DNA from: a bacterium
GTDB taxonomy: Bacteria > Armatimonadota > UBA5829
DNA length: 64,000 bases
Direction: 5' to 3'
NCBI GenBank assembly: GCA_021371935.1
Contig: JAJFVF010000013.1
Location: 186,001 to 250,000 of the forward strand
Shown: positions 7,419 to 33,893 of the stretch, in pieces
Layout: every line of letters begins with the position of its first letter
How positions within the stretch are numbered: position 1 is the stretch's first letter
Translations under genes and position numbers: made by a program
Notes under the pieces: model-generated
What the model was told of the DNA's origin: nothing
Databases searched by the model: none
The model's input: only the letters and a program-made list of their open reading frames with translations

Positions 7419-8603
7419 GGCGCCGGCAAGTTCTTGCACTGCAACACATTCATTACTCAGCCAGTCTGCCCATGCAGCGCGGTTGAGCGCGGATTTTGCC
7501 TGAGCAAGAAGTTCTTCATTGCTGTTTTTTTGTGCCTGTCGATCCTCAGGTTCCACCTTTAGTATCTCTATATTGCCTGCAACAAGTGCACTCTGGGCAG
7601 TATTTTCCGTAATCGTTCTTGCAGAAATGCCTGAGTCGAGCATATTATTGATTTTTTTCGCAATAACTTCAGCTCGATCCTTCGATGTGGTGCCGTCCGC
7701 CAGCGGCGCGGGTGTACACACCTCGCGATCACATATTATCACCTTAAATTGGCTGCTGCCTTCGCTGATCGGGACCGCTTGAGCATATGCCACACCGCGT
7801 ATTTTTCTCACATTCGGCGCAAGCCCTTCGGCAACCATGGCGTTCATCACAGCTCCGACTCTTCTATAGGGTGATGGATGGTCCTTATATATGCCCAGGG
7901 GCAGGGTTGGGTTTTCCGCTTGTTTTCTATCAAGTTTTTGCATGAATGCCAGCAGTCCGTCCGGTTTATATGATGACTTCACCATGTATGCGACCGCAGT
8001 CCTGTCGGCGTCACGCTCAGCTTCCATTGTATGGCTACTTGCGCTCCCTACTTTTAGCATCTGTGCGCCCAAAAGCAGGTTATTGAAATCGCTGCCTCTG
8101 ACCTTGCCGAAAATCCCCACAAGAGCAATCAGGGCCATATATTTGTCCAGTTTGGACTGTTCCTTAATGATCTTTGTGGTATGATGATGCGCAATATGAG
8201 CGATTTCATGTGCCAGAACACCCGCAAGTTCATCGTCCGACTCGACCATTTCCAGCAGACCTTTATTGACATATATGTAGCCGCCGGGGAGCGCAAATGC
8301 ATTGACATCAGGATCATCGACCACCTTAAAACGGTACTTGAACGGGGCAATTTTTGAATCGCCATATGAAGCGTGGACTTCATATTCACCGGCAATTTTG
8401 GCCAGTTTGTCGCCTATACGTTCCACTCTCTCGACAACGGTCTGGTCATCGACAATGTTCATTGTCTTTTCCATCCGTTCGGCATATTCGCGTCCCATCT
8501 TTTCCTCGTCTTGATATGAATCGGGATATGATGGGGAAATAACTGCCGTGAGCGAGGCAGCGAGGCACAGCATGAGCACATGAGATAGTCTTGCCCTTTT
8601 CAT
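7410..8603 (-). CDS. Secreted M48-family zinc metalloprotease
   Basis: A signal peptide (MKRARLSHVLMLCLAASL) leads into an M48 peptidase domain. The zinc motif is HEIAH at residues 132-136, preceded by DDELAGVLA. The third zinc ligand is likely E195 in the EAERDAD motif. The ALPGGYIYVNKGLLE segment is typical of BepA/LoiP-like periplasmic proteases, which degrade misassembled outer-membrane proteins. The product is 397 residues. The C-terminal ~130 residues have no recognisable TPR repeats. The start has GAGGTG upstream. A role in envelope quality control is inferred from family and export signal. Confidence 0.88.
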   Translation of the reverse strand: MKRARLSHVLMLCLAASLTAVISPSYPDSYQDEEKMGREYAERMEKTMNIVDDQTVVERVERIGDKLAKIAGEYEVHASYGDSKIAPFKYRFKVVDDPDVNAFALPGGYIYVNKGLLEMVESDDELAGVLAHEIAHIAHHHTTKIIKEQSKLDKYMALIALVGIFGKVRGSDFNNLLLGAQMLKVGSASSHTMEAERDADRTAVAYMVKSSYKPDGLLAFMQKLDRKQAENPTLPLGIYKDHPSPYRRVGAVMNAMVAEGLAPNVRKIRGVAYAQAVPISEGSSQFKVIICDREVCTPAPLADGTTSKDRAEVIAKKINNMLDSGISARTITENTAQSALVAGNIEILKVEPEDRQAQKNSNEELLAQAKSALNRAAWADWLSNECVAVQELAGASD

Positions 8604-27594: not shown

Positions 27595-28962
27595 TTGGGC
27601 GACATAGTGCAAAACACCTGCAGCAAAGTGCAATCACACGTAACAAATGCCGGAATATGGAGCACCAAACATGGGCTGCGCTCACACCTGGTTTCGCCTG
27701 AACCTTTCACACTCAGTTCCGATCAAGTGAGCCAACTGGAAAGACTGGGCGAGGCGCTGGTCAGGTTTTATCATGGCGCAAACGAGCTTTATCTGCGTTC
27801 GGATCAGGAATGGGTAAGTGAATATCTCGATATAGGCAAACCCGATGATCTGGTCCGCCATGCACGCATGCACTATCACAAGCATTCGGTTCCAATAATC
27901 ATTCGGCCCGATATACTGATCACTAAAAATGGGTTTGTGATAACCGAGCTTGACAGCGTGCCGGGCGGGTTTGGACATCTGGACTGCCTGTCAGCAGCAT
28001 ATGCGGATGCAGGGTTCGATATTGTCGGCTCGGCAAGGGGTATTCGAGAAAACTTTGCTAAGGCTCTGCGTGGGGCGGCAAATGTCGATGACCCGGTGTG
28101 CGCAATAATCGTCTCGGATGAGTCGGTCGACTATCTGCCTGAGATGACCTATTTGGCAAACGAACTGCGGAAAATTGGGCTGCGCGCATATACACTTTGC
28201 CCGAACGAGGTCGAGTTTACTGAAAACGGGCTATTTGCCGGAGAAATGCGAATCGATCTGGTCTACAGGTTCTTTGAGCTCTTCGACCTGCTTAATATCC
28301 CCAAGTCTGAACTGGTCTCTTACGCCGCGCGAAAGAAAATGGCGGTAATTACTCCTCCGTACAAGCACTATCTGGAAGAAAAAATTCTGCTTGCGCTTTT
28401 GCATAACGAGTCACTGAACGATTACTGGGTCAAATCTCTTGGTGACGACAACTATAGGCTGCTTATCGATATGATATCGCCAACCTGGATAATGGACAAT
28501 CGTCCAGTACCGCCGCATGCGCATATCTCAGGCTTCATCTATCGCGGCAGACCTATAAGAGACTGGCGCGAGATAATGGAGGGAACTCAGAAGGACAGGC
28601 GTCTGGTCCTGAAACCATCGGGTTTCTCGGAGTTGGCGTGGGGTTCGCGCGGAGTCAGGATCGGCCACGACATGCCGGCTGCCGAATGGACGGAGACGGT
28701 GGATATGGCACTTTCCAGTTTCAACCACAGCCCATATGTGATCCAACCGTTTCATGACGGCGCACTCATTGGGGTAAAGTACTTGGGAAACGACCAAATT
28801 CGCGAGATGCAGGCGCGTGTCAGGCTCTGTCCATATTATTTTGTGGCAGATGAGAAAGCAAGTCTTGGCGGAGTGCTGGCGACGGCCTGTCCTAAAGACA
28901 AAAAATTGATTCATGGAATGGTCGATGCGGTGATGATGCCATGTCGGTCAGAAAGTCAATAA
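27595..28962 (+). CDS. ATP-grasp-like ligase paired with the aminomutase gene
   Basis: This 455-residue protein resembles circularly permuted ATP-grasp ligases (glutathionylspermidine-synthase-like). It has IIIRPDILITKNGFVITELD followed by SVPGGFGH near residues 100-125, a central segment ending ARKKMAVITPPYKHYLEEK, and a late nucleotide-binding-like stretch: RLVLKPSGFSELAWGSRGV (about 336-354), then PYVIQPFHDG. Such enzymes join a carboxylate to an amine via an acyl phosphate. Start is TTG 27595 with AAGGAG nine bases upstream. It lies 23 bases before the lysine 2,3-aminomutase-like gene in the same direction, suggesting that it uses the mutase product. The substrate is unknown. Confidence 0.65.
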   Translation: MGDIVQNTCSKVQSHVTNAGIWSTKHGLRSHLVSPEPFTLSSDQVSQLERLGEALVRFYHGANELYLRSDQEWVSEYLDIGKPDDLVRHARMHYHKHSVPIIIRPDILITKNGFVITELDSVPGGFGHLDCLSAAYADAGFDIVGSARGIRENFAKALRGAANVDDPVCAIIVSDESVDYLPEMTYLANELRKIGLRAYTLCPNEVEFTENGLFAGEMRIDLVYRFFELFDLLNIPKSELVSYAARKKMAVITPPYKHYLEEKILLALLHNESLNDYWVKSLGDDNYRLLIDMISPTWIMDNRPVPPHAHISGFIYRGRPIRDWREIMEGTQKDRRLVLKPSGFSELAWGSRGVRIGHDMPAAEWTETVDMALSSFNHSPYVIQPFHDGALIGVKYLGNDQIREMQARVRLCPYYFVADEKASLGGVLATACPKDKKLIHGMVDAVMMPCRSESQ

Positions 28963-28985
28963 GTCAAAAGTAATTGGCAGCAGCT

Positions 28986-29915
28986 ATGATTTCCAAGACA
29001 ACCGAACATGTCGAGCGTTTGATGCTCTATGAAGAAGCCATAAGAAAGCAGTTTGAGGTCAGCAATCTCGAAGTCAACGATCAACTGACTGAGGATGCCG
29101 ACCCTCTGCGCGAAAAAGAGCATGAAGTAGTGCCGGGCATGATCAATAAATATGGCAATCGTGTGCTTTGCCTTATGACGGCTGAGTGCGCTGCATACTG
29201 CCGATTTTGCACTCGCAGACGGCTGGTGTCGGATATAGAACGGGGCAAGATCGATAAATCGCACATCGATGCATGGATCGATTACCTGAAGGCGCACCAA
29301 GAAGTAAGAGAGGCAATATTATCCGGCGGAGACCCGTTTATTGTCGATGATGACTTGTTCGATTATACAGTCAAAACGATATCGTCGCTTGATACAATCA
29401 AGGTAATCAGGATTGGCACACGTATGCCGGTAAGTGACCCTGCACGTGTAAGTGAGGCCAAACTTGAAGTAATTAAGCGGGTAGAACAGCCTGTATATGT
29501 CGGCATACATTTCGAGCACCCGGCCGAGATCACGCACAAAACTCTGCTCTGCTGCAAGAGACTCATATCCTCCGGCGTAATACTGTATTCGCAGACCGTG
29601 TTTCTGAAGGGAATCAATGATGATTATCAGACACTCCATGACCTGTTCAATGAGCTTCTCGAGATGGGTGTCCGTCCATACTATATTTATCGCTGTGACC
29701 CGGTTCCCGGAGCAATGCACTTCCGGGTGGACCCGGCAAAGGAGCGGAACATTATGACGAGGTTAAGAAAAGAATTATCCGGCCTGGCATGTCCGACTTA
29801 CGTAATCGATGCGCCAAACGGCAGCGGCAAAATCCCAGTACCTCTCGAGTTTTGGGACATGGACACAACTACGTATACAGACTTTGAAAACAGAGAACAC
29901 AAAATTGTGGAATAA
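28986..29915 (+). CDS. KamA-family lysine 2,3-aminomutase-like radical SAM enzyme
   Basis: The family shifts an amino group from C2 to C3 of an amino acid, using SAM, a [4Fe-4S] cluster and PLP. The cluster motif is C68-x3-C72-x2-C75, followed by TRRRL; the PLP lysine is K282 in APNGSGKIPV. The two aspartates that bind the side-chain amino group of lysine in the clostridial enzyme appear conserved: D238 in RCDPVPG and D275 in VIDAPN. This points to lysine rather than glutamate. At 309 residues it lacks the N- and C-terminal extensions of the ~416-residue clostridial enzyme and is closer to EpmB in size. ATG 28986 is chosen over TTG 28974; neither has a strong ribosome-binding site. Confidence 0.88.
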   Translation: MISKTTEHVERLMLYEEAIRKQFEVSNLEVNDQLTEDADPLREKEHEVVPGMINKYGNRVLCLMTAECAAYCRFCTRRRLVSDIERGKIDKSHIDAWIDYLKAHQEVREAILSGGDPFIVDDDLFDYTVKTISSLDTIKVIRIGTRMPVSDPARVSEAKLEVIKRVEQPVYVGIHFEHPAEITHKTLLCCKRLISSGVILYSQTVFLKGINDDYQTLHDLFNELLEMGVRPYYIYRCDPVPGAMHFRVDPAKERNIMTRLRKELSGLACPTYVIDAPNGSGKIPVPLEFWDMDTTTYTDFENREHKIVE

Positions 29916-29919
29916 CAGG

Positions 29920-29996
29920 TTAGCCTGCATTATTTACGAGGAACGTGAATAATGCTCTCTGAGATCCGAATTATGCGCTTTCCGCATAATTCGGAT
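29920..29996. repeat. Double-hairpin dispersed repeat, copy 1 (family B)
   Basis: GCATTATTTACG (29927-29938) pairs with CGTGAATAATGC (29944-29955). Then ATCCGAATTATGCG (29964-29977) pairs perfectly over 14 bp with CGCATAATTCGGAT (29983-29996). The first ~65 bases match the reverse complement of 57520-57580. No T-run follows, so it is not a classical terminator, though it may protect the mRNA 3' end. Confidence 0.75.
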
Positions 29997-30046
29997 TGGT
30001 CGTATAAAAATCAATATAATACTGAAAAAGGAAGGAATTGTCGACA

Positions 30047-30391
30047 ATGCAATCAGACCAATTGCACTACAGACGGGGATTTACGCTGATCGAAGTGTTG
30101 CTGGCTGTAGCCATAATCGGCATACTGCTTACGATTGGCATTCCGAACTTCCTGAAGGCACGCACGAGTTCTCATACAAAAACATGCCTGACAAACTTGT
30201 GGCACATTTCCCATGCAAAGGAAGAATATGCTGCTGAAGAAAAACTCAGCAATGGTCAATCGGTTGAGTGGAACGATCTTGTCCCTGCTCTATTGAAATC
30301 AAAACCATCATGCCCTGCAAGCGGCGAATACACAATTGGAAAAGTTGGCGAAACTCCACAATGTAACATTGATGAGCATGTCTTGCCATAG
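30047..30391 (+). CDS. Type IV prepilin / pseudopilin-like protein
   Basis: The N-terminus has the prepilin cleavage and methylation signal RRG|FTLIEVLLAVAIIGILL, with the conserved Glu at +5, followed by GIPNFLKART. The mature part is short (about 100 residues) with a single C-terminal cysteine pair region (KPSCPASGEYTIG...PQCN), as in Armatimonadota and Planctomycetes minor pseudopilins. It would be inserted in the inner membrane and processed by a PilD peptidase not encoded here. ATG 30047 is preferred over TTG 30038 because GGAAGGA lies 11 bases upstream. A hairpin terminator follows. Confidence 0.85.
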   Translation: MQSDQLHYRRGFTLIEVLLAVAIIGILLTIGIPNFLKARTSSHTKTCLTNLWHISHAKEEYAAEEKLSNGQSVEWNDLVPALLKSKPSCPASGEYTIGKVGETPQCNIDEHVLP

Positions 30392-31859: not shown

Positions 31860-33893
31860 CTATTCGGCATTCACAAATATATCCGCTTGTTTGCGGAGTT
31901 TGATTATTGGAATAATTTTTGTGTTTAAGTGTTTGCAGCTACTTACTCCAGTAACACATACTTTCTGCCCGTATACAGGTTTTGAAAGGCTGCGTGAGAC
32001 GACTCTTATGCCGTCATAACCAGAGCCATCTTCAAGCCCGCTGCCATCATCAATATAGAAAAAGTCTTCTTGATAATCACCCACATATGTTACAGTGCCC
32101 CATGTCCTGATAAGAATGCCGATATTGCGCAGCCCACAGCCGTCTGTCACACCCAAAGTGTATTCATTAATATCAGACCCGCCGACACTTTTATTCGGCA
32201 TGCCGAATGGCTTTGCCTCTTTTGTCTGGCTCTCCAAAATTTCTACGCTGGTCGCTTCAATGCTCCTTTCGCCTGATATAGTCGCTAAATTGCCGACAAC
32301 CGTGACCACATCACCCTCCATAACATCAGTCGAAGAGACAATACGTATCCCACAGGTGCCGTTTTCTTCTTGTATATAAAATTCGGCACCCCCCATTTCG
32401 GCAGTTCCGGCGCTAACTACTTTTGCTGTTGCTCGCACACCTTGTCCATCCGGGCTGGGAAATGCATCGGAAATAACACTCAGGTTTGAAATCGGGTTTT
32501 CGATAGTCATTGTGGTCGATGTCCAGCCCTGCACGGCAACAGAACTTGCGTCTGTTGCTCTCACGTCAATCTCGTGTGGGCCAACAGTATATTGGGTTGA
32601 ATCGAATGTTATGGAATATGGAGGGGTTGAAGCTGTGCCCAGGTGTTTGTCATCCATATAGAAATCCACTCTGGATATCCCACTGGGGCTTGCAGCCATT
32701 GCCGATATAGTCGCGGATGTTCCTGTTATTGGCACTTCCGGCGAAAGCACTTCAACAGTCGGAGGAGTCGAGTATGGAGCCATAAGTGGGTCTCCTACTA
32801 TCACAGACCTCCAAAACAACTTTGGACATGCCATATAAAAGCTTTCGGCCATATTGTATCCTTTAGTATATCTGTCAAACAACACCTGAGGATACGTTGC
32901 GTAGGCAGTATAAGGCTCAGCCACAAATCCCGACACACCGCATGCGCCATTTGTAATCATGTCGGCAATGAGGGACTGTGAACTTGCCGGACATGAGTCC
33001 GGGTAGCCATCTTCCGGCAGGAATGTGCGGCCACTGCTCGACACATAAGAATCAGCAATCCCGCCCGGCGCAAAAGTGTTGCTGATGTATGCGGAATAAG
33101 TAAAGGAGCCGTCGTTGCTTCCCCAACTAAAATATCCCATCAGTCCCGTCTGGTCGTGAACAAACAGCGATGTGTCATCATAGACAGTGGGTATACCTCG
33201 CTCAGACAGGATAGTCTGCGCCTCCGTAAGCCAGCCATTGAGTAAAGTGGTCGAGCCGGATGGGTTTACTACGTACTTGCGATCAAGCACAATAGAGCCG
33301 GAATGCTCATGTGTGCTGCTGCGGTCTATCATATTTTTGATGTCATCAAATGTGTAACCATCAAGTCTTGTAACCAGGTACAGGTGGTAACCGTCGAGAT
33401 CGAGTGTATGTGAGAAAGCAGTTTCGACGGGCTCAATGACCATCGGACCATATGGATTGTCGAGATCGCCAGTCACACTTGTTTCGCCTGCACATGTCAA
33501 TATGCTGGTTATTGAAAGTGGGCTGCCGTAGCCATATTCTGTCCCGACCACCTTCAACGGCACACCTTTTGTCAGGACAATATAGTCTATACTGTCCTGA
33601 AAGTTTGTGTTTTGAAGAAATGAACGAATGGGCGCTAATATGTTGGTGTCGAACTCAGATTTGCTCACAAGCTCGTCAGTCGAGCATGCGATTCTGCAGA
33701 CGTTTTCAGGCGGGATATCGCGTGCGTTCACATAATAATTGGTTATGCTGGCCGAAATTGTGCTGCGCTGATTCTGCACAACCATGACGTTTAAACGCCC
33801 ACCGCCGGAGACGGCCTCAACGGCGGTCAGAAGGAGAATCAACAGGATTAACAATATGTCGACTGTTAGCGTACGGGCTACCGGTCGAACCAC
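31860..33893 (-). CDS. TIGR03790-family secreted protein with C-terminal Ig-like and OB-like domains
   Basis: The 677-residue protein has a signal peptide (ARTLTVDILLILLILLLTAV) followed by the TIGR03790 domain: LNVMVVQNQRSTISASITNY, then YYVNARDIPPENVCRI, DYIVLTKGVPLKV, and a late ASSQSLIADMITNGACGVSG segment with KLFWRSVIVGDPLMAPY. A bacterial Ig-like domain follows (PPTVEVLSPEVPITGT...), then a beta-rich OB-like region. The family occurs in bacteria with PEP-CTERM/exosortase-type surface systems; its activity is unknown. The GTG start has GGAGG nine bases upstream. It is transcribed toward the PEP-CTERM genes. Confidence 0.85.
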   Translation of the reverse strand: MVRPVARTLTVDILLILLILLLTAVEAVSGGGRLNVMVVQNQRSTISASITNYYVNARDIPPENVCRIACSTDELVSKSEFDTNILAPIRSFLQNTNFQDSIDYIVLTKGVPLKVVGTEYGYGSPLSITSILTCAGETSVTGDLDNPYGPMVIEPVETAFSHTLDLDGYHLYLVTRLDGYTFDDIKNMIDRSSTHEHSGSIVLDRKYVVNPSGSTTLLNGWLTEAQTILSERGIPTVYDDTSLFVHDQTGLMGYFSWGSNDGSFTYSAYISNTFAPGGIADSYVSSSGRTFLPEDGYPDSCPASSQSLIADMITNGACGVSGFVAEPYTAYATYPQVLFDRYTKGYNMAESFYMACPKLFWRSVIVGDPLMAPYSTPPTVEVLSPEVPITGTSATISAMAASPSGISRVDFYMDDKHLGTASTPPYSITFDSTQYTVGPHEIDVRATDASSVAVQGWTSTTMTIENPISNLSVISDAFPSPDGQGVRATAKVVSAGTAEMGGAEFYIQEENGTCGIRIVSSTDVMEGDVVTVVGNLATISGERSIEATSVEILESQTKEAKPFGMPNKSVGGSDINEYTLGVTDGCGLRNIGILIRTWGTVTYVGDYQEDFFYIDDGSGLEDGSGYDGIRVVSRSLSKPVYGQKVCVTGVSSCKHLNTKIIPIIKLRKQADIFVNAE

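Follow-up and report, generated by a model that had tools for sequence, protein, structure and literature searches.

The locus described here raises the question of why a gene for an ATP-grasp-like ligase is followed directly by one for a short KamA-family enzyme, and whether the second protein supplies beta-lysine to the first. The preliminary description of this DNA had proposed such a candidate beta-lysine ligation system. Throughout, the window means the whole stretch of 64,000 nucleotides that was analysed; the features of the two-gene locus within it are as follows.

27595..28962, plus strand: ligase ORF of 455 aa, with a TTG start at 27595 behind AAGGAG
28986..29915, plus strand: short KamA-family radical SAM ORF of 309 aa, counted from ATG 28986
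28974, plus strand: alternative TTG start of the mutase, which would give 313 aa
29964-29977 and 29983-29996: arms of a perfect 14-bp inverted repeat, 3' of the mutase gene

Judging by where its homologues begin, the mutase probably starts at ATG 28986. This start leaves an intergenic gap of 23 bases and numbers two aspartates of the enzyme D238 and D275; the coordinates agree with the earlier statement that the ligase and mutase genes lie 23 bases apart on the same strand. The inverted repeat behind the mutase gene suggests that the operon probably has two genes only, and 29964..29996, where no T-tract terminator was reported, is the likely operon end. Downstream, past this palindrome, a lone prepilin-like gene (TIGR02532; window positions 30038-30391, plus strand) runs in the same direction as the pair. 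The minus strand further on encodes, in two adjoining genes, small secreted proteins that carry PEP-CTERM sorting signals (TIGR02595; 30476-31066 and 31082-31639) and, beside them, a 677-aa TIGR03790-family protein (31860-33893, 159.3 bits).

The mutase scores above the curated cut-off of the KamA family (TIGR00238; 238.9 bits, cut-off 199.2) and misses every equivalog cut-off, namely those for AblA (TIGR03820; 265.7 versus 525.4 bits), EpmB (216.8 versus 369.3 bits) and AblA_like_2 (261.5 versus 396.25 bits). The partner KamAs of other phyla, at 436–500 bits, likewise stay under the 525.4 bits of TIGR03820. When aligned with AblA, the window mutase proves shorter at both ends: the N-terminal region is missing, as is most of the C-terminal domain. 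It matches the clostridial lysine 2,3-aminomutase 2a5h (phmmer, E 1.4e-62), and every one of the SAM-, PLP- and lysine-binding residues is retained, including the [4Fe-4S] cysteines (CxxxCxxC) and the equivalents of R134, D293, D330 and the PLP lysine K337. D238 and D275 align with D293 and D330 (2a5h numbering), which we take to be the aspartates that hold the lysine side chain. The radical SAM cysteines and the equivalents of R134, K337, D293 and D330 are invariant in 49 scorable KamA sequences of four phyla, a set composed of the paired KamAs of the window class, Nitrospina and Chloroflexota and of KamAs from Verrucomicrobiota, Candidatus Xiphinematobacter among them. The structure model of the KamA was poor (pLDDT 67) and was left out of the analysis. 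The preliminary description had named the two aspartates as kept and lysine as the likely substrate; the 2a5h alignment and the 49 sequences bear out the former, and the conserved residues back the latter. Judged by these residues, the KamA-family enzyme would convert L-lysine to beta-lysine.

Since the window KamA falls under every equivalog cut-off, its substrate could nevertheless differ from lysine. One alternative is therefore that the ligase makes no use of beta-lysine: ligase and mutase may serve the same pathway or neighbouring ones with a different substrate each, or the short KamA may convert something other than lysine. The missed cut-offs, the missing terminal regions and the genomes in which the ligase stands alone are consistent with this. 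However, the lysine-site aspartates are invariant in the KamAs, and in Verrucomicrobiota the presence of the ligase tracks that of a strong KamA almost perfectly (see below), so that we regard this alternative as unlikely.

For the 455-aa ligase, no Pfam or NCBIfam family scores above its cut-off; the only hint is GSP_synth (PF03738; E 0.0035), whose 17 bits lie below the gathering score of 29.3. The ligase family, named by neither collection, is undescribed. We found that an AlphaFold2 model of the protein, built from 11 homologues (pLDDT 82.6, pTM 0.87), has human glutathione synthetase as its top Foldseek match in the PDB (E 2.9e-16, TM about 0.68). VIA-align Z values of the model are 26.6 for homoglutathione synthetase 3kal (over 396 residues), 25.8 for YjfC, 25.6 for Cp1B and 24.8 for E. 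coli glutathionylspermidine synthetase. Across glutathione, homoglutathione and glutathionylspermidine synthetases they come to 23–27 over 355–400 residues, whereas generic ATP-grasp folds (RimK, Ddl) reach about 8–9, far below the glutathione-synthetase-class matches. By its modelled ATP-grasp fold the ligase belongs with the glutathione synthetases of the eukaryotic type, and this predicted fold substantiates the earlier reading of this protein as ATP-grasp-like.

A profile search revealed no sequence homology to solved ligases. In hhalign comparisons, neither of them significant, R104-x-D106...E118-x-D120 of the ligase falls on R-x-D...E-x-N of E. coli Gss, and its K340 and Q384 strands fall on YgiC. 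Homology to known ligases would thus be a matter of fold, not of sequence. R104, D106, E118, D120, K340, G343, R410 and H440 are invariant across 148 homologue rows, some of which come from overlapping loci. The predicted glutathione-synthetase-class fold together with these invariant motifs makes an active ATP-grasp amide ligase very likely.

The distribution of the two genes shows how tightly they belong together. Within the window phylum the ligase occurs in 18 of 291 genomes, all of one class. Of the 17 full ligase loci in that class, 16 have KamA as the next gene downstream (the exception is G221; the locus of G241, a contig-edge fragment, stands outside the 17). Among GTDB-species genomes the ligase is also present in Nitrospina, Chloroflexota, one Verrucomicrobiales bacterium and Akkermansiaceae. 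Ligase and KamA are linked in all Nitrospina loci (n = 6). A strong ligase is found in 30 of the 251 Chloroflexota genomes sampled, and KamA adjoins it in 14 of these 30 loci but not in the other 16. Verrucomicrobiota carry the ligase in 108 of 388 genomes, a count that leaves out a 109th match at E 2e-4, and none of 30 ligase loci inspected there has an adjacent KamA. Yet KamA at E <= 1e-90 is present in 106 of the 108 ligase-positive genomes versus 79 of 279–280 ligase-negative ones (Fisher tests of this co-occurrence ignore phylogeny and oxygen lifestyle). Such an association, through adjacent genes in three phyla and through shared presence in the genomes of a fourth, goes far beyond chance. 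Conservation beyond the window genome and the predicted ATP-grasp fold are thus both in line with the proposal of the preliminary description. The four phylum groups each come out as a single, highly supported clade of the ligase tree, which makes the ligase family old and speaks against a recent mobile pair. In one Chloroflexota lineage (L273-L278, L281-L282), the ligase lies near genes for a membrane-fusion protein and ABC-type export, with or without KamA.

Two known systems use beta-lysine, through AblB and through EpmA. The second KamA of the window genome is a canonical AblA (764.8 bits, cut-off 525.4), encoded elsewhere:

G000, contig C22, 96346-99670 (L002, L223): AblA, a sodium:solute-symporter-like protein and AblB, the canonical N-epsilon-acetyl-beta-lysine locus of the window genome
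Contig C22, 96346-97143: AblB, beside the canonical AblA

Given this separate AblA-transporter-AblB locus, the pair in the window is a separate system and not the only beta-lysine source of the genome. AblB adjoins the other KamA and is not the partner of the short one. The earlier remark that neither AblB nor EpmA is here therefore stands for EpmA, which is absent genome-wide, and for AblB it applies to the window but not to the genome.

EpmA scored over its cut-off in none of 31 genomes and in none of the window class, the best matches being of LysRS-like length. Among the 388 Verrucomicrobiota genomes, EpmA is found in 0 of 108 with the ligase versus 223 of 280 without it. This mutual exclusion first led us to suspect that the ligase takes the place of EpmA in the beta-lysylation of elongation factor P (EF-P), and the Lys at the tip of window-class EF-P, in genomes that lack EpmA above the cut-off, would agree with it. 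However, window-class genomes have this Lys loop with or without the ligase. In 18 of 20 sampled ligase-positive Verrucomicrobiota genomes the modified position of EF-P is R or N (loops TPPRMAS and TPGNLRA), and it is R in the Chloroflexota EF-P examined. EF-P therefore cannot be the common target; its beta-lysylation was rejected as a shared function, and replacement of EpmA by the ligase is highly improbable. In ligase-positive Verrucomicrobiota, EF-P (loci such as L137, L147 and L154-L160) mostly has an unusual tip loop without a modifiable lysine.

The preliminary description had held that no other gene explains the pairing, which overlooks a third partner that is conserved: a gene for a small glutaredoxin-like protein (CxYC, motif SGQ) recurs with ligase and KamA. 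It is part of the operon in 6/6 Nitrospina loci, in the order ligase-Grx-KamA, and in 13/18 loci of the window class, in the order ligase-KamA-Grx or, in G221, ligase-Grx. Three class genomes without a local glutaredoxin have a close relative elsewhere in the genome (E about 1e-34). In the window genome and one congener the only match is weaker (E about 1e-11), and no glutaredoxin match was found in two class genomes that lack the ligase. Glutaredoxin matches in Verrucomicrobiota, which are weak (E 1e-4 to 1e-14), occur in 27 of 30 ligase-positive versus 1 of 30 ligase-negative genomes; several of them share the SGQ motif and a LADFG-like end. Aerobic life could account for part of this correlation between glutaredoxin and ligase. 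In Nitrospina sp. LS_NOB (L022, 7410-8655), about 1 kb of unrelated frame breaks the Grx between ligase and KamA after KLYNLDGCGYCAM, and the remainder of the gene resumes at 8428; an insertion or a chimaeric assembly could explain the break.

With a ligase that resembles glutathione synthetase and a glutaredoxin to use its product, that product might be a low-molecular-weight thiol or peptide that contains beta-lysine. The top structural matches of the ligase are glutathione and homoglutathione synthetases, and homoglutathione synthetase uses a beta-amino acid. The glutaredoxin, moreover, is a conserved third partner whose place in the gene order varies and which accompanies the ligase in genomes of a fourth phylum. 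On the other hand, glutaredoxin presence may follow aerobic life. Around the module, the 18 neighbourhoods of the window class and 60 neighbourhoods of Verrucomicrobiota, Chloroflexota and Nitrospina yielded nothing beyond synteny of housekeeping genes (ruvA, prfB) and transporter genes local to particular lineages; neither set links a cysteine-handling gene to the module.

Candidatus Xiphinematobacter americani, a nematode endosymbiont with 817 proteins (PMC4607532), bears on this and on the other readings of the product. Its whole genome (G331; 915,884 bases, 47.7% G+C) has kept the ligase, a single KamA and a glutaredoxin that has diverged (CGWS). Phmmer searches of the whole genome gave no match to E. 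coli GshA, YbdK or GshB and none to the AblB of the window genome, and no EpmA rises above the background of other ligase-positive genomes. A glutaredoxin in a genome without a match to E. coli-type GshA/GCS2/GshB is consistent with a thiol of another kind, but the symbiont has been proposed to import glutathione (PMC4607532). Taking both sides together, we consider a beta-lysine-containing thiol doubtful. The wider claim, that bacteria of at least four phyla make a new glutathione-like beta-lysine redox metabolite by means of KamA and a GSS-fold ligase, for use by a dedicated glutaredoxin, is likewise improbable.

In Xiphinematobacter the KamA has neither AblB nor EpmA to feed, and the ligase is therefore the best candidate for the beta-lysine consumer there. 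That the ligase uses beta-lysine is something we infer, now with more strength through this 0.9-Mb endosymbiont. Retention of the pair among 817 proteins makes a housekeeping role more probable than that of a stress-only osmolyte. A compatible solute would have precedent: osmolytes derived from beta-lysine are known, and in some bacteria Na+ riboswitches control ablA (PMC9337991). Such a product could be a dipeptide or an amide of beta-lysine that parallels N-epsilon-acetyl-beta-lysine, and several ligase holders belong to marine-type lineages (e.g. Nitrospina and Akkermansiaceae). However, the window genome already has its separate AblA-transporter-AblB locus, an obligate intracellular endosymbiont retains the pair, and an osmolyte leaves the glutaredoxin unexplained. 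An osmolyte role looks unlikely in Xiphinematobacter, and we give a compatible solute little credence overall. The same retention suggests a core function, which might be the attachment of beta-lysine to a macromolecule other than EF-P (an RNA, an envelope component or another protein). Peptides can serve as substrates of GSS-fold ligases, as with YgiC, annotated as a peptide-spermidine ligase, but the neighbourhoods inspected show no target gene linked to the module in any of the lineages, and such a target seems to us improbable.

Overall, we suggest, with some reserve, that the pair is probably the core of a conserved and undescribed pathway that makes a beta-lysyl amide. The KamA-family enzyme, going by its conserved residues, would isomerise L-lysine to beta-lysine. 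The ligase would activate a carboxylate to an acyl phosphate with ATP/Mg and condense it with an amine, and in this way may join beta-lysine to a small acceptor. The glutaredoxin-like protein, encoded in the same operon or elsewhere, would work with the pathway in many lineages. The favoured product is a dedicated beta-lysyl amide, probably small and with a housekeeping role, not a stress-only osmolyte. Against this explanation stand the AblA-AblB of the window genome and the ligases that have no adjacent KamA (16/30 in Chloroflexota, G221 and the inspected Verrucomicrobiota). The preliminary proposal of a beta-lysine ligation system was thus right in outline, as to fold, conservation and KamA residues, and went astray over AblB and the third partner; the peptide, cell-wall and lipid products that it named are candidates which the data neither favour nor contradict.

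That ligase and KamA are kept together in bacteria of at least four phyla points to a conserved beta-lysine-containing molecule. Given the wide spread (108/388 Verrucomicrobiota, 30/251 Chloroflexota) and the retention in a minimal endosymbiont, this product is probably important. A literature search for an aminomutase paired with an ATP-grasp ligase found no such report under the terms used. If the proposal is right, the pair adds a third type to the beta-lysine-using systems AblAB and EpmAB, and with it a ligase family that has no name in Pfam or NCBIfam.

Both of these known systems resemble the pair in outline. In AblA/AblB a lysine 2,3-aminomutase is likewise joined with a beta-lysine-consuming enzyme; however, AblB is an acetyltransferase, and in the window genome it sits at a separate locus. 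In EpmA/EpmB a KamA-family mutase likewise supplies a dedicated carboxylate-activating enzyme, but EpmA is a LysRS-like adenylating enzyme that is absent here, and EF-P is not a consistent target. On the side of the ligase, the eukaryotic-type glutathione and homoglutathione synthetases (2hgs, 8fbz, 3kal) match the modelled fold over the whole length, whereas the ligase is bacterial and KamA-linked and shares 12–15% identity with them, without significant sequence similarity. Glutathionylspermidine synthetase, YgiC and YjfC (PF03738) have the same fold (VIA Z 24–26), and their R-x-D...E-x-N/D and K motifs align, though non-significantly; the ligase differs in scoring below the Pfam gathering score, in having no amidase domain and in having a KamA partner. 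Cp1B, the ATP-grasp enzyme of E-64 biosynthesis (9cjn), has the same GSS-like three-domain fold (VIA Z 25.6) and uses it to join non-standard carboxylates to amino acids (PMC12568646). Cp1B, however, is a fungal natural-product enzyme without a mutase partner.
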